NCBI RefSeq assembly: GCF_000374085.1
Contig: NZ_KB893551.1
Coordinates: 1-64,000, forward strand
Source: Spirosoma spitsbergense DSM 19989
GTDB taxonomy: Bacteria > Bacteroidota > Bacteroidia > Cytophagales > Spirosomataceae
Length of the DNA: 64,000 nucleotides
Direction: 5' to 3'
Part shown: positions 3,946-53,806 of the stretch, piece after piece
Numbering within the stretch: the stretch's first letter is position 1
Layout of the letters: the number at the start of each line of letters is the position of its first letter
The notes under the pieces: model-generated
The model's input: the letters and a program-made list of their open reading frames with translations, nothing else
Told to the model about the DNA's origin: nothing
Database searches by the model: none
Made by a program: the position numbers and the translations under genes

Positions 3946-4031
3946 AAGGGTTAACCGCAAAGGTCACGAAGGTTTCGCAGAGAACGCAAAATAGCCCTCC
4001 GCCTACTTGGTATCCTTCGTGGTTTATAAAA
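3946..4031. repeat. intergenic hairpin built of degenerate ~10-nt repeats (element 1)
   Basis: The gap between the ATP-grasp-like gene and the downstream SDR, both minus strand, holds a left arm of related units (CGCAAAGGT, CACGAAGG, CGCAGAGAA, CGCAAA) at 3955-3991. A right arm near 4010-4027 reads, on the opposite strand, AACCACGAAGG. The arms can pair in several registers. This is the most degenerate of five similar elements in the window (others at 27294, 28323, 51181 and 53716). Confidence 0.5.
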
Positions 4032-5246
4032 TTATTTCTCGAAAAAGCAGACCGTACCGCCCACCCAGTCTTTATTCTTATTAAAATCTACCCCAATCAT
4101 TTCGCCCCGGCTCAGCCGGCCAAGGTTCGTCAGCAGCGTAGGCTTTTCATCGTCTTTTGGCCAGATAAACAGCATCCTGATTTCGCACTTGACCAACCCA
4201 TCCGGCGACTGGATTACCGGTTCATAGACCACTTTTTTCTGGAGCAGGTAACCATCCCGCTGGTCGGCCGGAATCACGTCGAGGTCGGCGGGCGTAATGT
4301 TGAGTTTGACGCCACTACCGGCAAACGAAAACAGCGGTTTCAGGACGTAGTTTTCCAGGTCGGCCGGGTATTCGGGTAAATCAGACAGGTAATAGCTGTC
4401 TGGTACGAAAGGACTTTTCAGCAGGGGCAGGGTGTATTTGCTGATGCGGAAAAACCAGTTTGGGTGCCCAACCCACTCCACATCCACATCATCCGTGAGT
4501 TGAAAATCGGTTTTCAGGTCGGGGAAGTGCTTCAGGTCGTCGAAGATGAGCCGGTTGTAAATTCGTTTGATGCGGATTTGCCGACCATCTTTTTCGTAGA
4601 ACAGTGCCCGACCGTCTTTTTTGATTTTGGTGAGGCAAACAGCCGCTACCCCGGTGGCTTTCTCGGTCAGCACAAAGTCGATGCGGGTCTTTTGCTTTTC
4701 GGGATAGATTTCCAGCAGAATAACTTCTTCGGGCTGGCATTCTCCCACAATCATCTGCTTCAGCTTGTTCAGGTACTCCAGGTTGTTGGTCGCGTTGAAC
4801 AAATGGGAGAGACTGTCTGGAATGGGATAAAACGTACGAAAAAGGTTAGCCAGATACGGCTGATAACCAAAAAGCGACGGGAATCCCTGTAATTCAATAA
4901 GTTGGGGTTCGAGTTCGCCACTCGACGGATTTTTGCAAACGGCGAAATCGATGGCCAGAAACTGGGTGTGGGCACCGGGTCCGTTGCCACCTTCGTGCGG
5001 AACCCGCTGGCTGGCTGGTATTGCCTTTTCAGTCAGGGCTTTGAAATCGTCGCGCGTAATCACGTCGACAATATCATCGCAGGCCTGCAAAATTTTGTCG
5101 GTCAGTACTTTAGGGACGAAGACAGGGCTTTCGGCTACGCGAAAGTCGAGCTGACCAGGTAGGTCGGCTTCAATTCTATCCAAAAAAGCCCGGTACAGTT
5201 CCGGGCTAAAAATTTCGTTATAACGCTGACGGACAGACTGTATCAT
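4032..5246 (-). CDS. ATP-grasp-like protein of an amidoligase gene trio
   Basis: This 404-residue protein has no signal peptide. The C-terminal part looks like the nucleotide-binding half of an ATP-grasp enzyme: 'YVLKPLFSFAGSGVKL' resembles the lysine/glycine-rich loop, 'GYLLQKKV' the linker strand, and 'KCEIRMLFIW' with 'GVDFNKNKDW' the acidic metal-binding strands. The N-terminal part contains 'HEGGNGPGAHTQFLAIDFAV' and 'ELQGFPSLFGYQ', reminiscent of glutathionylspermidine-synthase-like proteins. Such enzymes join a carboxylate to an amine through an acyl phosphate; the actual substrates are unknown. The ATG at 5246 begins 4 nt after the stop of the upstream amidotransferase, which points to translational coupling. 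A longer in-frame reading to 5300 would run into that gene and is not favoured. Confidence 0.65.
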   Translation of the reverse strand: MIQSVRQRYNEIFSPELYRAFLDRIEADLPGQLDFRVAESPVFVPKVLTDKILQACDDIVDVITRDDFKALTEKAIPASQRVPHEGGNGPGAHTQFLAIDFAVCKNPSSGELEPQLIELQGFPSLFGYQPYLANLFRTFYPIPDSLSHLFNATNNLEYLNKLKQMIVGECQPEEVILLEIYPEKQKTRIDFVLTEKATGVAAVCLTKIKKDGRALFYEKDGRQIRIKRIYNRLIFDDLKHFPDLKTDFQLTDDVDVEWVGHPNWFFRISKYTLPLLKSPFVPDSYYLSDLPEYPADLENYVLKPLFSFAGSGVKLNITPADLDVIPADQRDGYLLQKKVVYEPVIQSPDGLVKCEIRMLFIWPKDDEKPTLLTNLGRLSRGEMIGVDFNKNKDWVGGTVCFFEK

Positions 5247-5250
5247 AACA

Positions 5251-6102
5251 CTATACGCTTTGTGGTTCTTCGGCAGTAACCGCCATGGCCTGGATGGCAT
5301 CCCGCAAAAATCCGGGTATAATGACCGACTCGGTCAGGGCAATCTTATCGGGGTCCAGCAGGTAGGCTACCATATCGTCGTACTTTTCCTGACCAAAGTT
5401 CAGTACGATATGATTGCGTTTTTCGGCCGTCTGGAAGTAGCGCAGCATCCCTTCATTGTCGGCTTCGGGGTGAAACTGGGTACCAATAATTTCGGGCGAA
5501 AAGCGGATGGCCATCACCGCCCGGTCGAGGGGGACGTGTGGGCGGTATTTCTCCAGGCACAAGACCTGGGCTCCCATATTTTCCATTCGCTCACTATTTG
5601 GCTCCGTGATCTGGTAATCACGCGAATCGACGGCAAAGAACGGATCGGCCAGCCCCGTGAGCATGTGTTCGGTATCGCCCTCTTCGGTTTTGTGCACCGG
5701 AAAGATACCAAAGGAGGTTGATTTGCGCTGACTGAGTAACCCTAACTCGAGGTGCCGGACAACCAACTGGAAGGAGTGGCAGATCAGGAATACAAACTTT
5801 TTACGGTCGTTATGCCTGTTCCAGGCAAAAAGCTGGTCAATTAACTTGAAATACGCCGTTTCCCATTCGTCATTTGAGGGCAGGGGACTGCCCGGCCCAC
5901 CCGATGAAATATAAATGTCGTACGATAGGTCGGGAACATCGTTGCTACCCCGAATGTCGAACACATCGACCGACAGTTCACTGGGTTGCTCTGTCTGTTG
6001 ATTCTCTCCCTGGGCGTTCCGGATCAGGTGCATAATGCAGCGCATGCTTTCGTTGGCATGCTTGTTATTCATGTCCAGAACGGCAATTTTAACTGAGTTC
6101 AT
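5251..6102 (-). CDS. class I glutamine amidotransferase-like protein
   Basis: This 283-residue protein carries the class I glutamine amidotransferase triad. The nucleophile is Cys108 in 'FLICHSFQ', and His211 and Glu213 lie in 'GTQFHPEAD'. An oxyanion-strand motif 'IYISSGGPGSP' is at about 64-73. Members release ammonia from glutamine or, in the GMP-synthase-like and gamma-glutamyl-hydrolase-like subgroups, cleave gamma-glutamyl bonds. The elbow here is C-H-S rather than the common C-x-G, so the reaction may be atypical. It sits between the carboxylate-amine ligase (51-bp gap upstream) and the ATP-grasp-like gene (4-bp gap downstream), suggesting a three-step or three-subunit pathway making or trimming an amide-linked metabolite (inference). 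Confidence 0.8.
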   Translation of the reverse strand: MNSVKIAVLDMNNKHANESMRCIMHLIRNAQGENQQTEQPSELSVDVFDIRGSNDVPDLSYDIYISSGGPGSPLPSNDEWETAYFKLIDQLFAWNRHNDRKKFVFLICHSFQLVVRHLELGLLSQRKSTSFGIFPVHKTEEGDTEHMLTGLADPFFAVDSRDYQITEPNSERMENMGAQVLCLEKYRPHVPLDRAVMAIRFSPEIIGTQFHPEADNEGMLRYFQTAEKRNHIVLNFGQEKYDDMVAYLLDPDKIALTESVIIPGFLRDAIQAMAVTAEEPQSV

Positions 6103-6153
6103 AGCGATGAGTTACGGTTGATCTATTGATGAAATTGGTTCCAAAAAGAACGG

Positions 6154-7251
6154 TCAGATTCCGTAAGAAGTTTCTTTGACAATGTAATCCACAACCTGTT
6201 TCAGATCATTCGTTTCCTGAAAAACGGCTAACTGGCGGTCGGCACCGGTACCCATTTCCATAATTTTGAGCAGGTATTCGCACTCCGCGCGACTGCCCAG
6301 TTCGTCAACTACATCGTCGATAAAATTGAGTAATTCGTGCAGCAGTTGATGTGTGGGCACTTCTTCCTGCTTGCCGAAGTCGATCAGTTTACCTTCAATG
6401 CCGTACCGGGCCGCCCGCCATTTATTTTCGTTGATCAGAATACGGCGGTAGGGACGGAAATTCAGATTCTGCTTGTGCAGTTTGTAAATCTTGACCACTA
6501 ATGCCTGCATGATGGCCGCTAGACAGATGGTTTCGTCCACGCGCATGGGCACATCACAAATCCGGAACTCGATGGTGTTGAAAAACGGGTGAAGCCGAAT
6601 GTCCCACCATATTTTTTTGCCATTGTCGATGCAGTTGGTTTTCACCAGCAGGTTGATGTAATCGTCGTATTCAGCCGCCGTAGCAAAAAAATCGGGGATA
6701 CCCGTCCGCGGAAACTTGTCGAAAACTTTGGATCGGTAAGACTTGAAGCCAGTATTCCGACCCCGCCAGAACGGAGAATTGGTCGAGATGGCGTAGACGT
6801 GGGGCAGGAAATACCGCACGGCATTCATAATCTGAACACCCTCGTTGCGGTTCTCGATGCCCACGTGTACGTGCAGTCCGAAAATAAGATTCGACCGGGC
6901 CACATCCCGCAGTTCGTCGATGAGTTGGTCGTACCGTTCGTTGGGTGTAATCAACTGGTCCTGCCAGTCGGAGAAGGGGTGCGTACCGGCGGCTGCTACC
7001 TTAAGATTTTGATTATCAGCCAGCTCGATAATCATTTTCCGTAAGTACGTCACCTCTTCGCGGGCATCCTGAATGGTATTGCAGATATTGGTGCCAACTT
7101 CCACAACGGCCTGGTGCATCTCTGCCTTAACGCGCTCGTGCAACACAATTTGCCCGCCGTCGACAATCTTCGACATGTGTGATCGTAACTCGTAGGTGTC
7201 CGGGTCAATGGTTTGAAACTCTTCTTCAATTCCGAGCGTAAATGCTGGCAT
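6154..7251 (-). CDS. GCS2-type carboxylate-amine ligase (YbdK-like)
   Basis: This 365-residue protein belongs to the glutamate-cysteine ligase type 2 (GCS2) family. It starts with the diagnostic 'LGIEEEFQ' followed by 'MHQAVVEVGT', 'AAAGTHPFSDW', 'IFGLHVHVGI', 'ISTNSPFWRGRNTGFKSYR' and 'TIEFRICDVPM', the metal- and ATP-binding blocks of the family. Enzymes of this group form a peptide-like bond between a carboxyl group and an amine using ATP; E. coli YbdK has weak gamma-glutamylcysteine synthetase activity. It is the first gene of a minus-strand run with the amidotransferase and ATP-grasp-like genes. A TAnnTTTG-like element occurs on the minus strand at 7371-7378, 120 nt upstream, without a convincing -33 partner. 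Confidence 0.88.
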   Translation of the reverse strand: MPAFTLGIEEEFQTIDPDTYELRSHMSKIVDGGQIVLHERVKAEMHQAVVEVGTNICNTIQDAREEVTYLRKMIIELADNQNLKVAAAGTHPFSDWQDQLITPNERYDQLIDELRDVARSNLIFGLHVHVGIENRNEGVQIMNAVRYFLPHVYAISTNSPFWRGRNTGFKSYRSKVFDKFPRTGIPDFFATAAEYDDYINLLVKTNCIDNGKKIWWDIRLHPFFNTIEFRICDVPMRVDETICLAAIMQALVVKIYKLHKQNLNFRPYRRILINENKWRAARYGIEGKLIDFGKQEEVPTHQLLHELLNFIDDVVDELGSRAECEYLLKIMEMGTGADRQLAVFQETNDLKQVVDYIVKETSYGI

Positions 7252-7380
7252 GGGTGTATACGTTAAAAAGATGCCGGTTTATGTGTATCGGGAAACGATT
7301 TTGTAAGATACTGTTTTTTTGAAAACCTGCTGGCGTACCAGTTGTTTTTCCTGCGAATTGACTTTTATTCCAAATGTATC

Positions 7381-7644
7381 ATGAAAACGAAACGTGAAAA
7401 AAAACTGATAACAAAATACTGGCTGTTTGGCGGGGGCGGTGCCATGTTGCTCGGTAGTGGTCTGGCTGTATTGTTACACGGGTCCAAACTCCGGGAAACC
7501 AACACCGACCCCTGGTTTTGGGTCAGCACGGGTGGCTTTGCCCTCATCATGTCGGGCCTGAGTTTCATTGGCGACGCCAACCGGTTTCGTACCATGGCCG
7601 ATGTACTGAAAGAGCTGGACCGACGGGAAAAGGCAAAAGACTAA
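7381..7644 (+). CDS. small two-helix membrane protein, unknown function
   Basis: This 87-residue protein is predicted from the ATG at 7381; upstream in-frame alternatives are poor. A basic start (MKTKREKKL) leads into one hydrophobic segment (about residues 12-32, rich in Gly: 'GGGGAMLLGSGLAVLL') and a second ('FWVSTGGFALIMSGLSFIG', about 44-62), then a charged tail 'VLKELDRREKAKD'. It is likely an inner-membrane protein with both ends inside. I do not recognise a named family. It is divergent from the amidoligase run and is followed by an intrinsic terminator 5 nt after its stop, so it appears monocistronic. Confidence 0.75.
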   Translation: MKTKREKKLITKYWLFGGGGAMLLGSGLAVLLHGSKLRETNTDPWFWVSTGGFALIMSGLSFIGDANRFRTMADVLKELDRREKAKD

Positions 7645-7648
7645 TTGG

Positions 7649-7673
7649 CAGGCACGTCCAGCCTGTTTTTTTT
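7649..7673 (+). terminator. intrinsic terminator of the two-helix membrane protein gene
   Basis: CAGGC (7649-7653) and GCCTG (7661-7665) form a short stem with a 7-nt loop, followed directly by eight Ts. It starts 5 nt after the stop codon at 7644. Confidence 0.75.
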
Positions 7674-7718
7674 GTTTGTGGATTACCGATAGATTTGATA
7701 AATCAACTGACACATGCC

Positions 7719-7904
7719 ATGACGCAGGAACCTAAATACGACCAACCCGCTGAGGGTAGTAATGAGCGTGCTGTTGCCTGGGCGCGGCAGGCGATGGCCA
7801 ACAAACGTGCCGAACAAAAGCGAATGGCAGAGGAGTATAAAACCAATTATAAGCTACAGGCTGCTCTGGCCAAACTTCGCAGCAAGAATGCAAAAACGGA
7901 ATGA
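7719..7904 (+). CDS. small charged hypothetical protein
   Basis: This 61-residue protein (MTQEPKYDQP...) is almost entirely helix-forming and charged, with 'RAVAWARQAMANKRAEQKRMAEEY' as one probable amphipathic helix and a basic tail 'LAKLRSKNAKTE'. It has no signal peptide or membrane segment. The ATG at 7719 is the only sensible start; a longer in-frame reading upstream would cross the terminator region. Its last 17 nt overlap the start of the DUF6169-like gene, so the two are translationally linked. The family is unknown to me; a small antitoxin-like or regulatory partner of the next gene is possible but unsupported. Confidence 0.65.
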   Translation: MTQEPKYDQPAEGSNERAVAWARQAMANKRAEQKRMAEEYKTNYKLQAALAKLRSKNAKTE

Positions 7905-8406
7905 TTCCCCAATACCCTATCCCTTTGTGATTGATGAAGATGACAGCACGACCTTTGCTTTTGAGACTAATCACCAGTTAGTGTACGAAGTTCGGTTTAA
8001 ACATACCGGCTACATTTTTGTAAGCTACCCGGAACTCGAACTTCACGCCTTTGAATTGATAATCCGATTGGTGTCGAATAGCACAGGGAACAGAACGCCA
8101 CTTGATACCCAAATCGCAGCTACCATTGCTGGTATCGTCAGGTCATTTTTAGCCCGTACCGAGCGAGTGATTATTTACATCTGCGATTCGTCAGATTTGC
8201 GTCAGGTAACACGCGCCCGGAAATTTGATACCTGGTATGAATACTATCGGGGCATTGACTTCATCAAAATCAATCGCAACATCATTGATCCGTCAGGCGA
8301 AGTGTATTTGACAGCACTAATCATGCGGCACGATAATCCTCTCAAAGTCAGGATATTTGAGGCTTTCGATCGACTGACGTCCGGTCAGGCTGAAGATAAA
8401 CCATAA
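7888..8406 (+). CDS. DUF6169-like protein
   Basis: This 172-residue soluble protein starts at the ATG at 7888, inside the end of the preceding small gene. It opens with 'YPFVIDEDDSTTFAFETNHQLVYEVRF', then a helical region with 'DTQIAATIAGIVRSFLA' and a beta-rich end 'VIIYICDSSD...RKFDTWYEYY'. The pattern agrees with what I remember of DUF6169, a family of about 150-170 residues common in Bacteroidota with no assigned function. The family assignment is from memory and moderately sure. It shares an overlap with its upstream neighbour and lies 9 nt before an ECF sigma gene, so the three may be co-transcribed. Confidence 0.6.
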   Translation: MQKRNDSPIPYPFVIDEDDSTTFAFETNHQLVYEVRFKHTGYIFVSYPELELHAFELIIRLVSNSTGNRTPLDTQIAATIAGIVRSFLARTERVIIYICDSSDLRQVTRARKFDTWYEYYRGIDFIKINRNIIDPSGEVYLTALIMRHDNPLKVRIFEAFDRLTSGQAEDKP

Positions 8407-8415
8407 TGAATTTTT

Positions 8416-8967
8416 ATGCCCGATCCACCCAAACGCACCATTATCGAAACCGTCAGGGAATACGGGAATCGGCTGTCGCGGTTTATTCGGGGGCGGGTAA
8501 AAACGGATGAGGATGCCGAAGATATTTTGCAGGATGTCTGGTATCAGCTCAGTAATGTGGTGGATCTGGAGGGTATCGAGAGTATCAGCGGCTGGCTGTT
8601 TCAGGTGGCCCGCAACCGGATAACGGATACGTATCGAAAGAAAAAAGAAGAGTCGTTTACTGACCTGACGCCCGATGATGAGGCCGACGGCTTCAGTATC
8701 CGTGACCTGCTGCTGGCCGATGCCGAAACGCCCGACGATCAGTTTTTTAAAGACCTGTTTTGGGAAGAACTGATGCGGGCGCTGGACGAACTGCCCGATA
8801 ATCAGCGCACGGTGTTTGTGCAGAATGAACTGGAAGAGGTGACGCTACAGGAAATAGCTGACCAGACGGGCGAAAACCTGAAAACCATCATTTCCCGAAA
8901 ACGCTACGCCGTTCAGCATCTCCGAAAACGACTGAAATCCCTGTATGATGAACTCGATAACCTGTAA
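8416..8967 (+). CDS. ECF-type RNA polymerase sigma factor
   Basis: This 183-residue protein is a sigma-70 family ECF sigma factor. Region 2 contains 'LSRFIRGRVKTDEDAEDILQDVWYQL' and 'WLFQVARNRITDTYRKKK'. Region 4 contains 'ALDELPDNQRTVFVQNELEEVTLQEIADQTG', then 'TIISRKRYAVQHLRKRL', the helix-turn-helix that reads the -35 box. No FecR-type anti-sigma gene follows. Instead a small membrane protein lies 23 nt downstream, so this does not look like a canonical SusC/D-linked sigma. The downstream membrane protein may act as its regulator (inference). Confidence 0.92.
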   Translation: MPDPPKRTIIETVREYGNRLSRFIRGRVKTDEDAEDILQDVWYQLSNVVDLEGIESISGWLFQVARNRITDTYRKKKEESFTDLTPDDEADGFSIRDLLLADAETPDDQFFKDLFWEELMRALDELPDNQRTVFVQNELEEVTLQEIADQTGENLKTIISRKRYAVQHLRKRLKSLYDELDNL

Positions 8968-8990
8968 GCTCCTAAATCGCCTTTGATATA

Positions 8991-9320
8991 ATGAGAAATC
9001 ACGCTGGTAAAAAACGCTTTTTCATCCCGGTATTCATACTGCTGGCCCTGTTTGCCGTTACGTTTACCGTGTACTGGCTCTGGAACAACGTTCTGGTGGC
9101 GGTGGTGGCGGTAAAACCCGTTACCTACTGGCAGGCTATGGGGCTGCTCATACTGTCCCGCTTGCTGCTGGGTGGTTTCAAAGTCGGTGGTCCGCCCAGT
9201 CGCCCGCCCATGGGAGGAAGGGGTGACCACTGGCGCGAAAAATGGCGCAGCATGAGCGACGAAGAACGGGCCGCGATCAAAAATAAGTGGCGACGCTGGG
9301 GGAAGGGTACCCCTGAATAA
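8991..9320 (+). CDS. small membrane protein downstream of ECF sigma factor
   Basis: This 109-residue protein has a basic N-terminus and two hydrophobic segments: about residues 11-41 ('FFIPVFILLALFAVTF' then 'VLVAVVAV') and about 46-62 ('YWQAMGLLILSRLLLGGF'). A soluble Gly/Pro/Arg-rich tail ends in 'MSDEERAAIKNKWRRWGKG'. That tail resembles the cytoplasmic ends of small membrane proteins that commonly follow sigma factors in Bacteroidota. Its position suggests co-transcription with the sigma gene and a possible role in sequestering or modulating it; this is inferred from context only. Confidence 0.7.
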   Translation: MRNHAGKKRFFIPVFILLALFAVTFTVYWLWNNVLVAVVAVKPVTYWQAMGLLILSRLLLGGFKVGGPPSRPPMGGRGDHWREKWRSMSDEERAAIKNKWRRWGKGTPE

Positions 9321-9343
9321 CCTGACGAATTACGGCAAATACT

Positions 9344-9604
9344 ATGAAATTAACCTGGACATTCTACCCCCGCGGCCAACCCAGCATCTCGCTGACGGTG
9401 GTATACATCCCTAAACTGGACGACGTGCCTGTGCCTGTAGTGGGCTACCTGGACGTAGACACGAACACGGCCTTCGTGAACTGGGCCAATTTTCAGGTTT
9501 TCAACTCCACCGATCAGGTTTCGAAAAAAGCACTTTTTGAGTCATTGATAAGAAAGCCAACCGCCGACCGACAAGTGGTGAACCTGCTCATAGACCGAAG
9601 TTGA
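9344..9604 (+). CDS. hypothetical protein, 86 aa
   Basis: This 86-residue protein begins at an ATG 24 nt after the preceding gene and has no signal peptide or membrane segment. The sequence is beta-rich in the first half ('WTFYPRGQPSISLTVVYIP', 'VPVPVVGYLDVDTNTAFVNW') and helical at the end ('SKKALFESLIRK'). I do not recognise a family. Its place just before a strong bidirectional terminator (9644-9675) makes it the probable last gene of the sigma-factor transcript. Confidence 0.6.
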   Translation: MKLTWTFYPRGQPSISLTVVYIPKLDDVPVPVVGYLDVDTNTAFVNWANFQVFNSTDQVSKKALFESLIRKPTADRQVVNLLIDRS

Positions 9605-9643
9605 CACCCGTTTGGCGGCACCTGCCGTATTTGAAAACGATAA

Positions 9644-9675
9644 AAAAACGGGCTACTTACCAGCAGCCCGTTTTT
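9644..9675. terminator. bidirectional intrinsic terminator
   Basis: The 11-nt arms AAAAACGGGCT (9644-9654) and AGCCCGTTTTT (9665-9675) pair perfectly around a 10-nt loop, with A and T tracts on the outside. It separates the plus-strand 9344-9604 gene from the convergent minus-strand SusD gene. Confidence 0.88.
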
Positions 9676-9696
9676 GTCATTGTGAACCAGGACGCG

Positions 9697-11154: not shown

Positions 11155-11167
11155 AGTAAGCACAGAA

Positions 11168-16251: not shown

Positions 16252-16277
16252 CTAGTCAAACTAAGCGTGTCATCCAG

Positions 16278-16318: not shown

Positions 16319-16330
16319 CCCGCTCCAGTC

Positions 16331-27293: not shown

Positions 27294-27385
27294 TTTAATG
27301 ATAGAATGAGTGAATGACAGAATGAGTGAATAGCTGACGCGTACTCATTTTATCATTCACTCATTCTATCATTCACTCATTAAAT
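27294..27385. repeat. intergenic hairpin of 8-nt degenerate repeats (element 2)
   Basis: The gap between the isomerase and reductase genes consists of a left arm of 8-nt units AATGATAG, AATGAGTG, AATGACAG, AATGAGTG (about 27298-27331). A short spacer follows, then a right arm (about 27342-27383) whose reverse strand reads the same kind of units (AATGAGTG, AATGATAG, AATGAGTG, AATGATAA). The RNA would fold into a long stem in several registers. There is no T tract, so it need not terminate. Confidence 0.8.
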
Positions 27386-28315
27386 ATGATGACGACTGGA
27401 ATGCTGCGCGACGACGCGCTCAAGGGGAAAACCATTATTGTAACCGGGGGTGGAACGGGCCTCGGCAAATCCATTAGCCGGTATCTGCTCCAACTGGGTG
27501 CCAACGTAACCATCTGTAGCCGTCGGCAGCACGTGATCGACGAAACGGCCAAAGAACTGATGGCCGAAATGGGACGGTCCAGCGTTTTGGGGGGCGATGG
27601 GGCGGGGTCCGGCGGTTTGGGGGAAGTTCTGGCCGTGCCCTGCGATGTGCGTAACCCGCTGGAGATTGAAAACGTGATGGCAAAGACGATTGAGAAATTT
27701 GGCCGTATCGACGGACTGCTCAATAACTCAGCCGGTAACTTCATCAGCCCCACCGAGCGACTGTCGTACAAAGCCTTCGATACCATCGTGGACATTGTAC
27801 TGCGGGGGACGTACTATTTTACGCTGGCCGTCGGGAAATACTGGATTGAAAACAAAATTCCCGGCACCGTACTGAACATCTCGACCACCTACGCCACCAC
27901 CGGGTCCGGCTATGTGGTTCCTTCGGCGGTAGCCAAAGGCGGGGCACTCATCATGACGAAGTCGCTGGCGGCCGAGTGGGGCAAATATGGCATCCGGCTC
28001 AACGCGATTGCGCCCGGCCCGTTCCCGACTAAAGGAGCGTGGGACCGGCTCTTTCCCGAACCTCTGGCGAGTATGATGGACCCTACCAGCCGTATTCCCC
28101 TGCACCGGGTGGGTGAACACGGCGAACTGGCCAACCTGGCCGCTTTCCTGCTCTCCGACTACTCCGGTTACATCACCGGGGAAAGCATCACCATCGACGG
28201 GGGCGAGGTACTGATGGCAGGGGAGTTCAGCCACCTCGAAAACGTAACGGAAGAGCAGTGGGACATGATTGGGAAAACCATCAAACAGGCGAATAAAGAG
28301 AGTAAGAAGGAGTGA
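27386..28315 (+). CDS. 2,4-dienoyl-CoA reductase-like SDR (DECR type)
   Basis: This 309-residue short-chain dehydrogenase is strikingly close to mitochondrial DECR1, which reduces 2,4-dienoyl-CoA to trans-3-enoyl-CoA with NADPH. Shared blocks are 'NNSAGNFISPTERLS' (113-127), 'EWGKYGIRLNAIAPGP' (197-212), 'TKGAWDRL' and the C-terminal 'GEFSHLENVTEEQWDMI'. The DECR catalytic set is present at the same spacing: Tyr169, Ser180 and Lys184. The cofactor loop is 'GGGTGLG', then 'CSRRQ', consistent with NADPH. A Gly-rich insert near 68-80 is unusual. It is flanked on both sides by repeat hairpins and paired with the isomerase gene upstream. Confidence 0.88.
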   Translation: MMTTGMLRDDALKGKTIIVTGGGTGLGKSISRYLLQLGANVTICSRRQHVIDETAKELMAEMGRSSVLGGDGAGSGGLGEVLAVPCDVRNPLEIENVMAKTIEKFGRIDGLLNNSAGNFISPTERLSYKAFDTIVDIVLRGTYYFTLAVGKYWIENKIPGTVLNISTTYATTGSGYVVPSAVAKGGALIMTKSLAAEWGKYGIRLNAIAPGPFPTKGAWDRLFPEPLASMMDPTSRIPLHRVGEHGELANLAAFLLSDYSGYITGESITIDGGEVLMAGEFSHLENVTEEQWDMIGKTIKQANKESKKE

Positions 28316-28322
28316 TTTTTTT

Positions 28323-28407
28323 AATGGAAAATGAACAATGAATAAGGGGTGATGTAAGTCTGCCCCGTCTCGCCATTATTCATTTTACATTACCCATTAT
28401 TCATTGA
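28323..28407. repeat. intergenic hairpin of 7-nt degenerate repeats (element 3)
   Basis: The left arm has 7-nt units AATGGAA, AATGAAC, AATGAAT (28323-28344) followed by GGGG. The right arm starts with CCCC and, on the reverse strand, reads AATGAAT, AATGGGT, AATGTAA, AATGAAT, AATGGCG (about 28371-28406). GGGG/CCCC makes the inner stem. It lies in the gap before the DUF4494 gene. The remaining 28408-28463 holds nothing recognisable. Confidence 0.75.
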
Positions 28408-28463
28408 TTTACGCACTTTTACCCGGTAAAAACTGTTCTATTTACGGACTAAAACACGTTAAA

Positions 28464-37231: not shown

Positions 37232-37271
37232 ATAGCCCGGCCCGAAACAACGTTGTTTCGGGCCGGGCTAT
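37232..37271. terminator. 40-bp perfect palindrome, terminator of the copper cluster
   Basis: Arms 37232-37251 and 37252-37271 are exact reverse complements with no spacer (core AACAAC/GTTGTT, outer GC-rich CCCGGCCCG). GTTTTGGGG follows. It starts 22 nt after the HMA gene stop. Confidence 0.85.
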
Positions 37272-38793: not shown

Positions 38794-38797
38794 AGCA

Positions 38798-43490: not shown

Positions 43491-43515
43491 GTCTTTTGCT
43501 GTTTAGACTATCTGA

Positions 43516-44604: not shown

Positions 44605-44686
44605 CGTTATCTTGTTTTTTTTAGTGGTAAGCATCGGGTTGTATCGATTGATAAAAGGGTACTGAGTGGTGAGACTATGTGTGCTA

Positions 44687-44992
44687 TTATTTTGACGTGA
44701 TGCCCTGAATAGCAATTTTTTTGTCGGGAGGTGCGTTGGGAAGCTTCGCCAGGCGGTTAATCAGGCTGTCTTTCTGCTCGTTGGCTCGCTTACAGTCGGA
44801 GAGTTGCTCCTGCCAGACCAGAATATCTACGGGGTTGACCGAATTGCCTGATTCGTATTCGTAAACACCAGGCTTATCCCGTTGCTCATAGAGCAGAAAG
44901 CCATTGAACAGGAGGGAAAGAACCAGTGCCAGCCCGAAGCCGTAGAGTAGGATCGAGTCGGACTTCCGAACGGGAAAATTCCGGCGTTGCAT
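44687..44992 (-). CDS. small single-pass membrane protein upstream of the efflux operon
   Basis: This 101-residue protein has a basic start 'MQRRNFPVRKSDS', one transmembrane helix ('ILLYGFGLALVLSLLFNGFLLY', about 14-35), then a soluble, partly helical tail 'VDILVWQEQLSDCKRANEQKDSLINRLAKL'. The orientation is probably N-in with the tail in the periplasm. I recognise no family. It is 82 bp upstream of the adaptor gene on the same strand and may be the first gene of the efflux transcript. The upstream minus-strand TTGCTTTG near 45017-45024 is a weak -7 candidate. Confidence 0.6.
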   Translation of the reverse strand: MQRRNFPVRKSDSILLYGFGLALVLSLLFNGFLLYEQRDKPGVYEYESGNSVNPVDILVWQEQLSDCKRANEQKDSLINRLAKLPNAPPDKKIAIQGITSK

Positions 44993-45592
44993 AGCGTGTA
45001 TCTTTGTTTATCGATACAAAGCAAGCACCGTGACATTAAAACGACGTGAGAAGGAAATTAGAATATATTAGAAAAGTTTAAGATGCCCTCTTCCTGCTTC
45101 GCTGTACCCTGAATTTGTAGCTGGAAAAATCCTATAAAATACCCTTTAGAGTAAATTAATTTCCGTGGAAAATAGGCTTTGTTACCCGACAACAAGTAAA
45201 GCAGGATGGATTAGAATGGCAGCCAGCCGGCACACCGGTAGTTTTTGCGTAACCAGCTGCCTGCCTACTAATTACGGATGATTTTAGCCTGCTTTCTTCA
45301 GGTCTGATAATGGTCAGACATCCTGAAAAACAATTGTTTCGGGCGGAATTAGTCAGTATCATTACTACCTGGATGAACTCCAAAGGCATCTGTATTAAAC
45401 GGAACTTTAACGCTAATTGAGAAAAAGTAAGAATAATCATAGCTTTATACGATACCAGGCTTATTTTTGGAACAGTCAGACAGGTACTACCAACCCGAAT
45501 CTGAAAGTGCGTAAGAGAAAGGAAGCAGGTAATTTTCGTCTGAACTGGTGTGAGCTGGTGTTGGCGTAAGAAAGTTATTCTACCCTTCGTAA
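44993..45592. other. 600-bp divergent regulatory region
   Basis: There is no convincing gene on either strand here; the longest minus frame has no family features. GTCTGA (45302-45307) and TCAGAC (45314-45319) form an inverted repeat with a 6-nt spacer, flanked by TTCAGG and CCTGAA, which extends the symmetry. A plus-strand TATTTTTG (45462-45469) matches TAnnTTTG and could serve the hybrid regulator gene, leaving a leader of about 120 nt. The size suggests shared control of the efflux operon and the regulator. Confidence 0.45.
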
Positions 45593-48418: not shown

Positions 48419-48436
48419 TATAGGTTAAGTATTGTT

Positions 48437-48472
48437 TTGACGGATTATGTTCTGAAAATTGACGGATTTTGT
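48437..48472 (+). promoter_or_regulatory. direct-repeat operator for an AraC-type regulator
   Basis: TTGACGGATTATGT (48437-48450) and TTGACGGATTTTGT (48459-48472) match at 13 of 14 positions with a 22-bp period, two helical turns. This is the geometry bound by AraC-type domains. It ends 14 nt before the -7 element of the next gene, the usual place for activation. Confidence 0.6.
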
Positions 48473-48486
48473 CACTCTGGGAGGAA

Positions 48487-48494
48487 TAATTTTG
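48487..48494 (+). promoter_or_regulatory. -7 element of the secreted-protein gene
   Basis: TAATTTTG is an exact TAnnTTTG. No TTG sits at the ideal -33 distance (the nearest are 15 and 25 nt away), consistent with an activator-dependent promoter. The leader would be about 100 nt. Confidence 0.5.
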
Positions 48495-48603
48495 CCCCCA
48501 TCTTAACAGGAGACAGTCTATCAAGACATCTGGCTAAGAGGGGAGGAAGCTGAAAAGTCCCTAACGTGAGTAAGCATATAATGAACCAAAATCATTTATT
48601 AGT

Positions 48604-49002
48604 ATGAAAAAAGTACTTCTAACACTTTCAATGACCTTGTTCATTGGACATTACCTAGCTGCACAAAATCACGGAATCCTGTGGTGCGACAAGAACCCGG
48701 CGAAAAAAGCTACAAACAATGTGGTTACACAACGCAGCACGAACGGCATATTGAACTTACAGGTAAATTGGGAAGGAAAGACAGGTGGTTCCACTTTCGC
48801 GCCACAGAACTTAGCCATCACCAATGGTACCTGCCAAACCTGTAAGCCACTCGGGGCGATTGGTAAGAACCAACCACGGGAACTCTGGACCATTAAAGTG
48901 ACTGATGTGACAAAACCTGTTACCTTAGCCTGGAATACTCCCGGTACCAAGGGGTATTGTGGAGACGGGTCGCTTGTTATACCACCGGCCGTCTTTAAGT
49001 AG
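48604..49002 (+). CDS. small secreted protein, unknown family
   Basis: This 132-residue protein has a clear signal peptide ('MKKVLLTLSMTLFIGHYLAAQ', cleaved near residue 20). The mature part is beta-rich with four cysteines ('ILWCDKN', 'GTCQTCKPLG', 'GYCGDGS') that could form two disulphides or a metal site. I do not recognise the family. The gene is preceded by the direct-repeat operator and a promoter element, immediately downstream of the hybrid two-component regulator, which suggests it is that regulator's target. Confidence 0.75.
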   Translation: MKKVLLTLSMTLFIGHYLAAQNHGILWCDKNPAKKATNNVVTQRSTNGILNLQVNWEGKTGGSTFAPQNLAITNGTCQTCKPLGAIGKNQPRELWTIKVTDVTKPVTLAWNTPGTKGYCGDGSLVIPPAVFK

Positions 49003-49271
49003 TTAAGGTGGTAAGCTGTGACAGTAATGCAGGATGAGTCAAGTGGCATTTGGGCTGGTTCACTCTTGCTGAAACAACCCAAACAGCCATTATGTGTTTG
49101 GTGGAGTGTTGGCACAGCCTGTCAGCACTCTATTTTTTGCTCCTCCGAAACAGACAGGATTGGTGCTATAACCCCGAGCCATGAAAATGGATAACCTGGG
49201 GTATGGGATGACAACACAACCAACTGTTGGCGTAAGTTGGGGCTAACACTTTGCGCCAGCCAATACCAAGC
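49003..49271. other. intergenic region without recognisable content
   Basis: These 269 bp hold no supportable ORF, hairpin terminator or exact promoter. A loose -7-like sequence (ACACTTTG at 49246-49253) precedes the lipoprotein pseudogene. Confidence 0.4.
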
Positions 49272-49661
49272 ATGAAACCCACCCTGCTAACATTTCTCGT
49301 AGTTATAACGCTAAGCGGTTGCAACACGAAGAAACCTTCAACCGGCGAGTCGAACGCGACAACATAAACTGCTTCAGGTTCCAGTTCGGTTGAACCAATG
49401 GGCACCAGTCAGATGCAGTACTACGCTTTGATGACGGCCGGTAATACGATTCAATTAAGCCTGACCCGTCAGGGCACTAACGTAAGCGGCACGTTACAAT
49501 ATCCACTGGCGGATAAAGACCAAAACACCGATACGATGCGGGGCGACACGCTGATAGCCGACTATACGTTCCAGTCAGAAGGGCAGGAGTCCGTGCGGGA
49601 AGTGGTGTTTCTGGCCACAAAAAACGGCCTTGTAGAAGGATATGGCCCCGTTCAGGAGTAA
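49272..49661 (+). pseudogene. lipoprotein gene interrupted by one in-frame TAA
   Basis: From the ATG at 49272 the frame encodes a lipoprotein signal ('MKPTLLTFLVVITLSGC', lipobox Cys17) and a short linker, then meets TAA at 49365-49367. The same frame continues without another stop to 49661 through a linker-like 'TASGSSSVEP' and a folded part ('MQYYALMTAGNTIQLSLTRQG', 'GTLQYPLADKDQNTD', 'REVVFLATKNGLVEGYG'). The signal peptide and mature domain are clearly halves of one gene of 129 codons. The downstream part could restart at ATG 49398 but would not be exported. A point mutation, a sequencing error or stop read-through are the options. Confidence 0.8.
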
Positions 49662-49801
49662 AATGGCAAAATGATGTTTACTCCGAACCAGCCCCTTACA
49701 TTTGACTCAGGCCAGGCATTTAAGCGAATTCCCTGTCATGACGAGTCATAAAATGATCGCTGAATCGTATCCCTTATAGCCCATTATCAACCAGACTGAG
49801 C

Positions 49802-51166
49802 TTAGGTGATATACCCATTCCCCGGCAAACTAATGCTAACAGAGGTGCCCTGGTTTATACTGGAGGTGATCTGGAGGGTACCCAGGTGCAGGTCGACGAT
49901 TTTTTGCGTTATGGCCAAACCAATGCCGTAACCGGGGACTCCCTCTACATTTTTACCCCGGTAAAGCGGACTAAGTATGTGTGTTGTGTCGATTTCGGCG
50001 ATGCCACGCCCCTTGTCGGTCACCACCACGGTAATTTGGCCTTCGCTGGCTTTTAGTTGAACGGCTACTGGTTCGCTGGAATACTTGCAGGCGTTATCCA
50101 GCACGTTCAGGAAAGCCGTAGTCAGCAGGGTTGCGCTGCCTTTCACGGTCAGCGATTCGTCTTCATCCGTCATAAACTGAAGCGGCAGATGACGGCCCGG
50201 ATACTTCGTTTGCACCTGCCCAATGGCCGTAAGGAGGCAATCATCAACCTGAACGGCGGTCAGGGAAACGGTGCCATCGGTAACTTTAGCCAGCCCCAGC
50301 AACCCGTTGGTCAGCCCAATCACTTTTTTGAGTTCTTCGACGGCCACTTCCATACTGTCTCGCCAGTCGCCAGGGTTTTTATCGTACCGCAGGGACGTTT
50401 CCAGCGTGCCGAGGGTGTTGGTGAGGGGGGTGCGCAGTTCATGCGACGCGTGCGAAACAAAGCTGCGCTGGGAAACAAACGAATCTTCCAGCCGGAAAAG
50501 CATCTGATTGAAGGTCATGGCGAGCTGGGCGATTTCGTCTCTCCGGTTTCCTTCATTCACCCGCTTGTGCAGGTGCGTGGCGGTGATTTGCTCCACCTCG
50601 TCCACGATTTGAGAAATGGGTTTCAGCACCCGCCCGGAAAAATACCATCCGGCTAGCACAATCAACGTAAAACCCAATAGATTGGCCAGCAGCAGAATTT
50701 GTTGCAGCGTCGCTAATTTGGCCAGGCCGATTCGGTCATAACCAGAGGCAAAAATGTAAAACAGCTGCCCCCGGTCCCGGTAGGGGATTACGATGGATTC
50801 AAGATGGCCGCTTTTAAATTCAAACAGCGAGGCCGTATCGAGCAACGGAATTTTTTCTTTGTAATAGTCCGATTCTTTCAAGGTTCGGTTGGTGAATACC
50901 AGGTTATGCCGGTCGTCATAAATACTGATTTGTTCCTCCACAATGGTGAGTAAATCGGTACGGACCATGTTCTTGAAAAAGTCGTCGTGCAGGTGCCGCC
51001 GGGAAATCAGTACCCGGCCCGTTACCCGGGCTTTTCCTTCCAGCCTGCTGTAGAATTCCTCCTGCCGGTATACCGAATAAAAGTACCACACCAGCAGGGA
51101 TAGCGTAATCTGGATGGCCGTAGCCAGCAACGTAAAAATAATGGTCAGGCGATTGCGGATGAGCAT
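49802..51166 (-). CDS. sensor histidine kinase with HAMP domain
   Basis: This 454-residue inner-membrane kinase has TM1 at about residues 10-30 and a periplasmic loop of about 130 residues. TM2 ('ILLLANLLGFTLIVLAGWYFSG', about 155-178) and HAMP ('LKPISQIVDEVEQITATHLHKRV') follow. HisKA ('RSFVSHASHELRTPLTNTLGTLE') carries the phospho-His. HATPase_c shows 'FLNVLDNACKYSSEP', 'VTDKGRGIAE' and 'GYGIGLAITQKIV'. It pairs with the OmpR-type regulator encoded upstream on the same strand. The architecture is that of CusS/QseC-like envelope sensors; the signal is unknown. It is separated from the regulator by repeat element 4. Confidence 0.94.
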   Translation of the reverse strand: MLIRNRLTIIFTLLATAIQITLSLLVWYFYSVYRQEEFYSRLEGKARVTGRVLISRRHLHDDFFKNMVRTDLLTIVEEQISIYDDRHNLVFTNRTLKESDYYKEKIPLLDTASLFEFKSGHLESIVIPYRDRGQLFYIFASGYDRIGLAKLATLQQILLLANLLGFTLIVLAGWYFSGRVLKPISQIVDEVEQITATHLHKRVNEGNRRDEIAQLAMTFNQMLFRLEDSFVSQRSFVSHASHELRTPLTNTLGTLETSLRYDKNPGDWRDSMEVAVEELKKVIGLTNGLLGLAKVTDGTVSLTAVQVDDCLLTAIGQVQTKYPGRHLPLQFMTDEDESLTVKGSATLLTTAFLNVLDNACKYSSEPVAVQLKASEGQITVVVTDKGRGIAEIDTTHILSPLYRGKNVEGVPGYGIGLAITQKIVDLHLGTLQITSSINQGTSVSISLPGNGYIT

Positions 51167-51180
51167 AAAAACGGGTCAGT

Positions 51181-51267
51181 AGATTGTCATTTAGTGGTCA
51201 TCGATTGTTATTCGTTGTCATCCGTTGGCTGCTATTGGTTGACTATCTAATGACAATAAATGACCAC
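51181..51267. repeat. intergenic hairpin of ~10-nt degenerate repeats (element 4)
   Basis: The 105-bp gap between response regulator and kinase holds consecutive units near TTGTCATTCG (for example TTGTTATTCG and TTGTCATCCG at 51205-51224). A final arm AATGACAATAAATGACCAC (51249-51267) is complementary to the first units (51184-51202). The same design as elements 1, 2, 3 and 5 is seen with a different unit. Confidence 0.65.
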
Positions 51268-51271
51268 GCAC

Positions 51272-51946
51272 TTAATCCTCACGGAGAACGTACCCCATGC
51301 CAACAATGGTGTGCAGCAATTTAGGCGAAAACCCTTTGTCAATTTTTTTGCGCAGGTAACTGATATACACATCGATCACATTCGTACTGCTATCGAAATT
51401 CAGGCTCCAGACCCGCTCGCTGATGTCTACCCGCGAAATGATTTTTCCTTTGTTCAGCATCAGGTACTCCATCAGGGCGTATTCGCGGGTGGTCAGATCA
51501 ATACGTTTGCCCGCCCGGGCCACGGTTTTGGCATCGAGGTTTAATTCCAGATCGGCCAGCCGGAGAATTGATTTTTGGCCGCTGCCACTGTTCCGGCGCG
51601 TCAGCGCTCTAAGCCGTAACAGCAACTCCTGAAACTCAAAGGGTTTGGCCAGGTAATCGTCGGCTCCGGCGTTGAACCCGTCCGACTTGTCGGCCATACT
51701 ATCCAGGGCGGTGAGCATCAGCACGGGAACCGCTTCATTTTCTGACCGGATTATCCTACACAGTTCAAAGCCGTTCATCTGCGGCAGGTTGACATCCAGG
51801 AGTATTATATCGTAAATGTCCCGGCGAAACAGGGATAGGCCCGTACGCCCGTCGTAGGCTATTTCCACTTCGTAGCCTTCTGCCGACATCCCTTTTCGGA
51901 TAAAAGAGGCTAGTCGTTCTTCGTCTTCAACTAAAAGGATTTTCAT
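51272..51946 (-). CDS. OmpR/PhoB family response regulator
   Basis: This 224-residue regulator has an N-terminal receiver ('KILLVEDEERLASFIRKG', phospho-Asp in 'IILLDVNLPQMNG', 'VLMLTALDS', Lys in 'YLAKPFEF') and a C-terminal winged helix ('LTTREYALMEYLMLNKGKIISRVDISERVW', 'VIDVYISYLRKKIDK'). The ATG is at 51946. It is transcribed with the histidine kinase downstream, the standard order in Bacteroidota. Sequence features resemble CusR/CopR, but no DNA target can be assigned. It lies 20 bp after queG on the same strand, so the three genes may share a transcript. Confidence 0.95.
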   Translation of the reverse strand: MKILLVEDEERLASFIRKGMSAEGYEVEIAYDGRTGLSLFRRDIYDIILLDVNLPQMNGFELCRIIRSENEAVPVLMLTALDSMADKSDGFNAGADDYLAKPFEFQELLLRLRALTRRNSGSGQKSILRLADLELNLDAKTVARAGKRIDLTTREYALMEYLMLNKGKIISRVDISERVWSLNFDSSTNVIDVYISYLRKKIDKGFSPKLLHTIVGMGYVLRED

Positions 51947-51966
51947 AAAAGAGAATGGTTCATCAC

Positions 51967-52902
51967 TTACGTTGGCTTACTGAAAGCAACGTTACGTTTT
52001 AAGCCTGCCAGTTTGGTGCGTTTTACCGCCGACCGCCGGAAGAGGGTCTGGAAAACATCCGCCGTTATTTCCTCCCAATCGGATTTCTTCATACCGGCTA
52101 AATCGGGGTGAGGGGTAAATGCGGGCGTTTTATGGGGGCGGGCAAACCGATTCCAGGGGCAAACATCCTGACAAATGTCGCACCCGAAAATCCAGTTTTC
52201 AAACGTTCCCCGAACGGATTCCGGTATGGCTTCTTTCAGTTCAATGGTAAAGTAGGAGATACATTTGCTGCCATCCACTACATACGGATCTGTGATGGCA
52301 TCTGTAGGACAGGCGTCGATGCAGCGGGTGCAGGTGCCGCAATAGTCGGTGATGGGACCGTCAGGTTCCAGTTCCAGGTCAAGGATCAGTTCGCCGATAA
52401 AGAAGAAAGAGCCGATGTCGCGGTTAATCAGGTTGGTGTGCTTGCCCACCCAGCCTAACCCGGCCCGTTTGGCCCAGGCTTTATCCATTACCGGTGCCGA
52501 GTCGACAAAAGCCCGCCCGCCCACTTCGCCTATCTCCTCGCGGATGAAATCCAGCAACGCCTTTAGTTTGTCCTTGATAACAAAGTGGTAATCAGTGCCG
52601 TATGTGTATTTGGAGAGTTTATAGTCTTCCTCCCCTTCGGGTAGCGTTTGCTCCGGATAATAGTTGAGCAAGACCGTAACAACTGATTTTGCATCATCGA
52701 CCAGCAGTCGTGGGTCGAGCCGCTTATCGAAATGGTTCGCCATGTAGTGCATCTGTCCATGCCTGCCCTGCTTAAGCCAGGTTTCCAGTAAAGGAGCCTC
52801 CTCTTCCAGAAAATCAGCTTTGGCCACGCCACAAAAGTCGAAGCCCAGTTCAGTGGCTTTGGCTTTGATGCGTTGCGTATAGTGGCGGGCGGGTGCGTAC
52901 AT
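51967..52902 (-). CDS. queG: epoxyqueuosine reductase QueG
   Basis: This 311-residue enzyme reduces epoxyqueuosine to queuosine in tRNA, using cobalamin and two [4Fe-4S] clusters. Family features are '[45 protein letters not shown]', '[20 protein letters not shown]', '[26 protein letters not shown]' and the ferredoxin-type motifs '[16 protein letters not shown]' and '[11 protein letters not shown]'. The length is normal, and no HEAT-repeat extension is present. It is a cytoplasmic housekeeping tRNA-modification enzyme and a possible first gene of the transcript with the two-component pair. Confidence 0.96.
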
Positions 52903-53053
52903 GATGATCTGTATACGGAAGCGTTAAGAAGAGAAAGGACTTGAACCGTAAAACAACTTGCCTTCCTTTATAAATCCTGAAAATCCATAAAATCACAGGA
53001 ATTCTGCCGGGTGATCGATTTAGATATTGTGCCAACTTGTCAGTATATGTGAT

Positions 53054-53079
53054 TTTGGCCGGTGTTTTGCCCATCTTTG
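53054..53079 (+). promoter_or_regulatory. weak promoter-like sequence before grpE
   Basis: CATCTTTG (53072-53079) has one mismatch to TAnnTTTG. A TTTG at 53054-53057 is only 14 nt away, too close for a standard -33. If used, transcription would start at about the ATG at 53083. Confidence 0.3.
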
Positions 53080-53115
53080 CCTATGAATTTCTGGAAGCGA
53101 AATAGAAACTCAGTG

Positions 53116-53715
53116 ATGGAAAATAACGACATGCTGGACGAACAAACGTCTATGAATACAGAACAACCTGACAACCTGACAACTGAAGAAGCGATAAACG
53201 TCAATGGTGGCGTACCGGAAGAAACCGACGACGCAACACCAACCGACGACGCTACTGCCGAAACCGCACCGGCCGATAAAACGAGCGGTGAACTGGCCGA
53301 ACTGAAGGATAAATATCTCCGTTTATACGCTGATTTCGAAAACTATCGCCGGCGCACCGCTAAGGAAAAACTCGACCTTATCAGCAATGCGAATGAGGGA
53401 GTACTAAAGGCACTCATTCCGGTGGTCGATGATTTTGAACGCGCTATGCAGTCTATTCAAACAACCGAAGAGGTGGATGCCGTAAAAGAGGGAGTTGAAC
53501 TAATATACAACAAACTGTTCAAGACGCTGGAAGGCAAAGGCTTAAAGCCGATGGTATCAAAGGGCGAACCGTTCAATGCCGATCTGCACGAGTCTGTTAC
53601 GCAATTCCCGGCTCCGAGTGATGACCTGAAAGGAAAAGTCATCGAAGAAATTGAAAAAGGATATTACCTGAATGATAAAGTCATTCGATTCGCAAAAGTA
53701 ATAGTAGGAAGCTAA
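53116..53715 (+). CDS. grpE: nucleotide exchange factor GrpE
   Basis: This 199-residue protein is read from the ATG at 53116; an in-frame ATG at 53083 would add 11 residues ('MNFWKRNRNSV') and cannot be excluded. GrpE drives ADP release from DnaK. A disordered acidic N-terminus (to about residue 60) precedes the long dimerisation helix 'LKDKYLRLYADFENYRRRTAKEKLDLISNANEGVLKALIPVVDDFERAM' and the beta-domain 'GLKPMVSKGEPFNADLHESVTQFP...KGYYLNDKVIRFAKVIVG'. It is followed by dnaJ after repeat element 5. No hrcA or CIRCE operator is present, so heat control must be by other means. Confidence 0.95.
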   Translation: MENNDMLDEQTSMNTEQPDNLTTEEAINVNGGVPEETDDATPTDDATAETAPADKTSGELAELKDKYLRLYADFENYRRRTAKEKLDLISNANEGVLKALIPVVDDFERAMQSIQTTEEVDAVKEGVELIYNKLFKTLEGKGLKPMVSKGEPFNADLHESVTQFPAPSDDLKGKVIEEIEKGYYLNDKVIRFAKVIVGS

Positions 53716-53806
53716 TGGCGAATGAGTGAATGAGCGAATGAGTGAATACCATCCGGCAGGTTTTATTCACTCATTCGCTCATTCGCTCATTCACTCATTC
53801 AAAAAT
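53716..53806. repeat. intergenic hairpin of 8-nt degenerate repeats between grpE and dnaJ (element 5)
   Basis: The left arm has units of GAATGAGT/GAATGAGC (about 53720-53748). A spacer of about 15 nt follows, then the right arm (53764-53800), the reverse of which reads GAATGAGT, GAATGAGC, GAATGAGC, GAATGAGT. Most of the left arm pairs perfectly. It ends 6 nt before the dnaJ ATG, so the fold could hide the ribosome-binding region. Confidence 0.85.

Follow-up and report, generated by a model that had tools for sequence, protein, structure and literature searches.

How can a hairpin stay in place between two genes while the sequence that builds it is exchanged? The question is raised by contig 164 of Spirosoma spitsbergense DSM 19989 (genome of 7.55 Mb in 237 contigs), whose opening 64,000 bases are called the window below. 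In a sequence-only reading, five gaps between same-strand genes of the window (3946-4031, 27294-27385, 28316-28463, 51167-51271 and 53716-53806) had been described as holding two arms of degenerate short tandem repeats, inverted relative to each other around a spacer, each gap with a unit of its own. The DnaJ protein encoded in the window shares 95% identity with the DnaJ of Spirosoma telluris (Bacteroidota, Cytophagales), and the gaps were compared across 36 Spirosoma genomes. These comparisons showed that, at several orthologous gaps, the hairpin is kept in place while its units are replaced. The reading that we tentatively favour, at a probability somewhat short of even, is that these gap-filling hairpins of opposing repeats would be shaped at the DNA level by arm copying, slippage and replacement, and that at some gaps the stem would act on the operon RNA.

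Hairpins are retained at orthologous gaps while their units are replaced

The most complete series was obtained for the gap between grpE (53062..53715, + strand, Pfam GrpE) and dnaJ (53807..54970, + strand, Pfam DnaJ, DnaJ_C and DnaJ_CXXCXGXG, start codon picked by eye). In the window, the + strand hairpin of this gap has arms at 53720-53748 and 53764-53792 and a loop at 53749-53763, and is built of the unit GAATGAGY with a period of 8. A hairpin was present in all 30 of the loci examined among the 36 genomes, the remaining six having no full match or lying outside the set; it fills the gap, which is 67-115 nt long, with -3 to 25 nt from the stop codon to the stem and 4 to 20 nt from the stem to the ATG. 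On a tree of dnaJ DNA (31 rows, 10 of its 28 inner branches being weakly supported), the unit class, which was assigned by eye on the tree as in the gaps, changed at least nine times. Four unit classes were found among four related species (L108, L109, L110 and L145), and the sister rows G028 and G010, whose end branches measure 0.017 and 0.024 changes per site, carry AATGATTG/AATGATAG-type and AAAGAGCG-type hairpins with differing loops. Outside Spirosoma, such a hairpin is sporadic at grpE-dnaJ, for example in Emticicia aquatilis (37 of 80 named loci inspected, by eye). One metagenome-assembled genome labelled Spirosoma fluviale (L156) encodes a DnaJ 71% identical to that of the window, full-length matches in the genus being at least 91% identical, and its label is doubtful.

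Retention was lower at the other four gaps. At 27294, a hairpin was present in 20 of 29 orthologous loci, a count that leaves out one locus without a readable N-terminus and takes as hairpin-less G034 and G025, in which the upstream gene's end went unrecognised; the gap is 35 nt long and hairpin-less in G007 and G028, filled in G010, and reduced in G035 and G020 to lone right arms that look like decay by eye. Gap 28316 carried a hairpin in 20 of 30 loci, plain ones included, about 12 being repeat-built by eye. For gap 3946 the figure was 14 of 30, some of them plain and the gap of the own genome being among the misses; at least three unit kinds were recognised by eye (GTTTGAGG-, CACGGAG- and CAAAGACGCAA-type), and the gap was empty, at 17-41 nt, in five genomes including G011 (17 nt). 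At gap 51167, 3' of a response regulator gene, 7 of 24 loci had a hairpin after six of the 30 had been dropped as paralogues (64-69% identity). The retention of the five gaps is thus uneven (chi-square 33.7, p 8.7e-7); as the species are not independent, this and the other p values across orthologues are indicative only. The expectation that orthologous gaps would keep the structure while the units change was largely borne out, gap 51167 being the weakest case.

Hairpins exceed chance and start just past stop codons

The abundance of hairpins was measured in 2,324,971 bases from 15 Spirosoma genomes, in which 1733 genes were called with a simple codon-usage script; this caller uses ATG starts, so that distances to start codons are rough except at grpE-dnaJ. 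Gaps of 20-700 nt were scanned, a hairpin being scored at 12 or more and one dinucleotide shuffle per gap serving as control. Hairpins occurred in 293 of 983 same-strand gaps (7 in the shuffle), in 102 of 197 convergent gaps (2 in the shuffle) and in 33 of 233 divergent gaps (7 in the shuffle), more than chance would give. A hairpin counted as periodic if one or both arms reached p <= 0.01, for which about 2% are expected; 93 same-strand, 10 convergent and 11 divergent hairpins passed (76, 6 and 10 for the left arm alone). The same-strand hairpins were accordingly divided into 93 repeat and 174 non-repeat hairpins (p > 0.05 in both arms), with 26 intermediate ones in neither group. The best left-arm period was 7 or 8 in 73 of the 93 repeat hairpins, and their median distance from the stop codon was 3 nt, against 21.5 nt for non-repeat hairpins. 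These hairpins are long, far more frequent than chance allows, and mostly start a few bases past the stop codon. Purine-rich left arms had been considered as a sign of a transcription-linked role and were discarded, since the left arm of a palindrome is identical whichever strand is read.

Another explanation would make the hairpins intrinsic transcription terminators or attenuators with a freely drifting sequence. The high frequency of hairpins in convergent gaps agrees with it, as do the many non-repeat hairpins with a terminator-like, short-looped form. The repeat hairpins themselves fit poorly: their median loop in same-strand gaps is 21 nt, compared with 10 nt for non-repeat hairpins, a T run follows 6 of 93 as against 35 of 174, and the grpE-dnaJ stem ends 4-20 nt ahead of a start codon. 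With long loops and few T runs, most repeat hairpins were rejected as intrinsic terminators, individual exceptions aside, and we consider this explanation of the class quite improbable. Three non-repeat hairpins of the window (227-289, 37232-37271 and 55882-55921), with arms of 20-28 nt and loops of 0-7 nt, are perhaps terminators.

A simpler, ungapped detector of inverted repeats with periodic arms gave 2.45 per 100 kb in the sample of the own genome and 4.40 in other Spirosoma, compared with none in 100 kb of E. coli and none in shuffled own sequence. Six small samples around dnaJ from other Bacteroidota (14-165 kb each) gave 0 to 3.7 per 100 kb, and since some of these rates are non-zero, the pattern is not restricted to Spirosoma.

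The five gaps of the window differ in strength

When folded as RNA and compared with dinucleotide shuffles, all five gaps did better than the shuffle mean, with z scores of -3.40 at 3946-4031 (- strand), -9.15 at 27294-27385 and -11.32 at 53716-53806 (none of 200 shuffles folding as well in each case), -3.52 at 28316-28415, the part of that gap that was folded (1 of 200), and -2.12 at 51167-51271 (- strand; 3 of 200). The claim that five gaps hold inverted repeat arms was upheld to that extent; arms that are both long and significantly periodic were found in two of them only, 27294-27385 (31 nt) and 53716-53806 (29 nt), where they form near-perfect hairpins of about 30 bp, are ungapped, have a period of 8 and were equalled by none of 300 arm shuffles. 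The first of these lies on the + strand between a gene of the enoyl-CoA hydratase family and an SDR gene, with arms at 27297-27327 and 27343-27373, the unit AATGANNG and a loop at 27328-27342 containing GCTGACGC. The SDR protein encoded downstream (27386-28315) seems to have extra residues near its N-terminus relative to many Spirosoma orthologues, judging from shorter match lengths.

Taken singly, the other three gaps are marginal. A weaker, AATG-containing hairpin on the + strand lies between the SDR gene and a DUF4494 gene (arms 28336-28357 and 28385-28406), and the periodicity of its first arm was not significant against arm shuffles (p 0.69). Imperfect hairpins are found on the - strand at 51183..51257, between the genes of a response regulator and a histidine kinase, with a TTGTCAT-type unit, and at 3946..4031, between an ORF without a Pfam match (4032-5300) and an SDR gene (3157-3945), with CACGAAGG-like units; a strand-symmetric DNA aligner scored gap 51167-51271 at 12 and gap 3946-4031 at 2. 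Because some orthologues of gaps 3946 and 28316 carry strong repeat hairpins, the eye that had picked out these two gaps was right about the class. A search of the window against Rfam returned no match at the gathering threshold, and a known RNA family was set aside on this ground.

Repeat units recur across the genome and the genus

The units had been taken to be private to each gap. This proved wrong: AATGANNG is common to gaps 27294 and 53716, and units recur genome- and genus-wide. The AATGANNG pattern had 28 matches in the own genome, overlaps and both arms being counted, and the reversed pattern none; it was found in 32 of the 36 Spirosoma genomes (reversed control: 3 genomes, 7 matches in total) and, in a sample of 395 genomes from the phylum, in 14, one of which has it in the form of plain AATGA repeats (reversed control: 2 genomes). 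The 9-nt class AGTGNAGTNNGTGNAGTNNGTG is limited to certain lineages, with matches in 8 of 36 genomes, 57 of them in G032, and none in the other 28. Of four plasmid records that match the window hairpin, two are Spirosoma (coverage 98-100%, identity 73-79%). Among 31 orthologous gene pairs other than the window gaps, repeat hairpins were seen for seven pairs in one or more genomes and for three of them in at least two, with differing units. A genome-specific unit vocabulary found no support as a general rule, the observed similarity lying within the permuted range given below. In the gap 3' of the response regulator gene of G005 (L316), a palindrome TAGACCTATAAGGTTTTCAAAACCTTATAGGTCTA is present twice in slightly varied form.

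Recurrence of this kind could also arise if the hairpins were non-autonomous mobile palindromes, of a REP/REPIN-like or MITE-like nature, that are moved by RAYT or another transposase and tolerated between genes. The same unit kinds at many sites in many species, the lineage-limited AGTGNAGTNNGTGNAGTNNGTG class and the empty orthologous sites in G011 at 3946 and in G007 and G028 at 27294 all agree with mobility. So does the tip motif GCTGACG/CTGACGC or its reverse complement, found at the loops of 14 of 93 same-strand repeat hairpins and 4 of 174 non-repeat ones; it contains GACG, the complement of the REP tag CGTC. Counts of RAYT and of AATGANNG matches were weakly correlated over the genomes (rho 0.34, p 0.04). 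Nevertheless, in a check for transposases that used PF01797 alone, 7 of 36 genomes had no match to this RAYT family, and one of the seven is 82% complete; among genomes without it, G024 has 43 AATGANNG matches, and samples of G004, G005 and G031 contained 2, 4 and 3 periodic-arm hairpins. RAYT was therefore rejected as a necessary cause. Of five RAYT loci examined in the own genome, four have inverted repeats nearby, none of the repeat type by eye, and the fifth has none at all; moreover, the hairpins share neither one sequence nor one period. We regard mobility as an unlikely explanation.

Several observations were made alongside. The GCTGACG/CTGACGC motif was read forward at 10 loops, reverse at 2 and in both directions at 2, an example being window 27333-27340. 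Inverted repeats with CCCTACGGG or CCCCTACCGGGG adjoin RAYT genes (L001 1220-1240 and L003 1998-2024) and may be the REPs of those RAYTs. Another inverted repeat, dispersed and ending in TTTTGTCATTC.GA-like and GGAATCTT-like sequence (L049 3651-3733 and L060 4172-4263), with similar arms in the samples of G008, G011 and G023, has a REP-like look unlike that of the repeat hairpins.

How the arms may stay matched and what the stem may do

Under the favoured reading of DNA-level copying with an RNA role at some gaps, template switching would copy one arm from the other, which would keep the arms complementary and could flip the loop; slippage would multiply the units; and whole hairpins would be gained, lost or replaced, perhaps by copying from other hairpins with the same unit kinds. 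Arm changes were tallied in 117 comparisons, non-independent ones, between orthologous hairpins with 80-99% arm identity, which gave 593 differing pairs. In 220 of these, both arms had changed with Watson-Crick pairing kept; 85 of the 220, the most frequent kind, were exchanges between A-T and T-A, which support arm copying because no G-U step can bridge them. Another 45 pairs had changed otherwise. At dnaJ, the loops of 12 in the sister species G022 and G001 are inverted relative to each other (reverse score 11, forward 4), and a shared tip is inverted between G008 and G018 (reverse 11 against forward 4). Template switching is described as leaving inverted loops and homogenised arms behind (PMC8604942, PMC8794818). 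Where the gap follows the response regulator gene in G010 (L301) and G028 (L300), about 11 tandem GTTAATG units stand on one side and degenerate complements on the other, a one-sided expansion that is likely due to recent slippage. With moderate confidence, these patterns point to copying at the DNA level as the main force that would match the arms, and whole-hairpin replacement must also occur. As to the local generating process proposed in the sequence-only reading, signs of hairpin-templated copying were seen in the two inverted loops and the both-arm changes; the private sequence that it assumed was wrong.

Once in a transcript, a stem of 20-40 bp would draw the stop codon near the start codon of the next gene, and could serve as a putative element of processing, stability or translation coupling; at some gaps, above all grpE-dnaJ, selection would require a hairpin, whichever its sequence. 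An operon RNA element is suggested by the placement just past the stop codon together with the complete retention at grpE-dnaJ, the latter being the main basis for a possible RNA role. The one sign of selection for structure is the uneven retention between gaps, which is weak outside the window's own gaps. Over 34 orthologous gene pairs, hairpin presence was overdispersed (96.7, simulated maximum 65.6), a result owed mostly to the three window gaps around which the stretches had been picked.

A number of results weigh against copying combined with selection on an operon RNA. Without the three window gaps, overdispersion was weak: the value was 46.3 against a mean of 30.9, and 266 of 5000 simulations attained it. 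Repeat hairpins also occur in divergent (11 of 233) and convergent (10 of 197) gaps, compared with 93 of 983 same-strand gaps (difference p 0.014); their presence there speaks against a single stop-to-start role, and stop-to-start coupling therefore cannot be the general one. Selection on RNA pairing, if it acted alone, should leave many more G-U intermediates than A-C mismatches in the transcribed strand. The G-U to A-C ratio was 58:38 (p 0.05) in same-strand repeat hairpins, a weak excess, and 52:40 in non-repeat, 122:89 (p 0.03) in all same-strand, 33:26 in convergent and 17:14 in divergent hairpins, with 13:11, 7:5 and 7:5 for three sets of orthologues, of which one was incomplete. A first wobble test had been stronger (35:16, p 0.011, 55 hairpins, other thresholds), and the excess shrank with more data; selection on RNA pairing is seen at best weakly. 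As for the copying, 328 of the 593 differing pairs had changed on a single side (G-U was the start or end state in 99, A-C in 82 and another mismatch in 137, and 10 were never Watson-Crick), and some of the double changes may reflect units aligned out of register or the replacement of whole hairpins. Loop orientation was kept (forward score of at least 10) in six comparisons, against the two in which it was inverted, and unit similarity followed the genome no more than expected by chance (0.087; permuted mean 0.081, maximum 0.119).

Several of these results would equally be produced by a neutral process in which slippage and template switching form palindromes in tolerant gaps as a by-product devoid of function. 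The occurrence of hairpins in every gap type, the patchy presence with empty sites at most gaps, the weak G-U excess and the small overdispersion once the window gaps are removed all agree with such a process, which is a real possibility even though we do not think it probable. It accounts least well for grpE-dnaJ, where 30 of 30 loci have kept a hairpin through at least nine class changes, compared with 61 of 113 loci when the remaining four gaps of the window are taken together (Fisher p 2e-7). The earlier suggestion of selection for structure is favoured by the uneven retention, but is weakened by what was seen outside the window gaps and by the base-pair counts.

Comparison with known repeat hairpins

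The sequence-only reading knew of no named family with this architecture, yet two share it. By analogy, the nearest precedents are the STRR (short tandemly repeated repetitive) hairpins of Cyanobacteria and the P6b classes of the Nostoc trnL intron. The original STRR papers are reportedly those of Mazel in 1990, Jackman and Mulligan in 1995 and Lindberg in 2000. Like STRR hairpins, those of Spirosoma consist of tandem short degenerate repeats (93 of 293 same-strand hairpins being periodic), are intergenic and fold; they differ in belonging to another phylum and in having units of 7-10 nt. The STRR hairpins, for example at hupS/hupL, usually have 7-bp repeats, and transcript stabilisation or translational coupling has been proposed as their role (PMC2670836). 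A Nostoc repeat, ttgtcagttgtcagttgtca, that resembles the Spirosoma TTGTCAT unit is listed as forming no hairpin by itself (PMC2408588). In P6b of the Nostoc trnL(UAA) intron, degenerate 7-nt repeats of Class I (TDNGATT) and Class II (NNTGAGT) have repeatedly replaced each other with similar structure (PMC4476775). This is again a repeat-built stem with class switching, and NNTGAGT resembles the AATGAGT found here; P6b is however a single intron site with two classes, unlike the many intergenic sites and more numerous classes of Spirosoma. What is added here is that the replacement of unit kinds at orthologous gaps was followed across one genus.

Other systems are more distant. TAACTGA heptamers are intergenic, many of them near start codons, in Beggiatoaceae, Cyanobacteria and five Bacteroidetes (PMC4679880); unlike the Spirosoma hairpins they are direct repeats of one fixed heptamer, for which that report predicts no structure by themselves. 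REP/REPIN elements are multi-copy intergenic palindromes with stems of 5-13 bp, GTAG or CGTC tags and a family sequence (PMC3733652), whereas Spirosoma stems are mostly 20-40 bp, vary in sequence and also occur in genomes without a PF01797 match. Template switching has been described as creating or maintaining RNA hairpins in rRNA, microRNA and yeast coding genes (PMC8794818, PMC8604942); arm homogenisation and loop inversion are shared with those hairpins, template switching being a mutation mechanism rather than a kind of element. An Anabaena mutant without the stem-loop at the nifH1 processing site reportedly has a shorter nifH1 half-life (PMC4284476, which cites unpublished data for it). 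Among the papers listed in a literature search, mainly of open-access text, none dealt with such hairpins in Spirosoma or Bacteroidota, which is weak evidence of novelty, and a word search in the available text of a hairpin survey over 118,019 genomes (PMC13155455) met neither Spirosoma nor Bacteroid-.

Implications

The boldest form of the favoured reading would make these loci sequence-agnostic intergenic elements: selection, at least at grpE-dnaJ, would hold a hairpin in place while DNA copying rewrites it from a genus-wide stock of units, so that the structure would be inherited and the sequence would not. We consider this rather doubtful. If it holds, RNA searches based on sequence or covariance would find such loci only with difficulty throughout Bacteroidota. 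The grpE-dnaJ gap in 30 species is a natural series in which a near-perfect hairpin outlasts wholesale replacement of its sequence, and it makes the origin and upkeep of long stems, by template switching or by stepwise compensation, directly testable. It also links an old unexplained feature of Cyanobacteria, the STRR hairpins, with Bacteroidota. Finally, should the hairpins act on the mRNA of operons, a control element absent from annotation and missed by homology searches would be common to many gene pairs.

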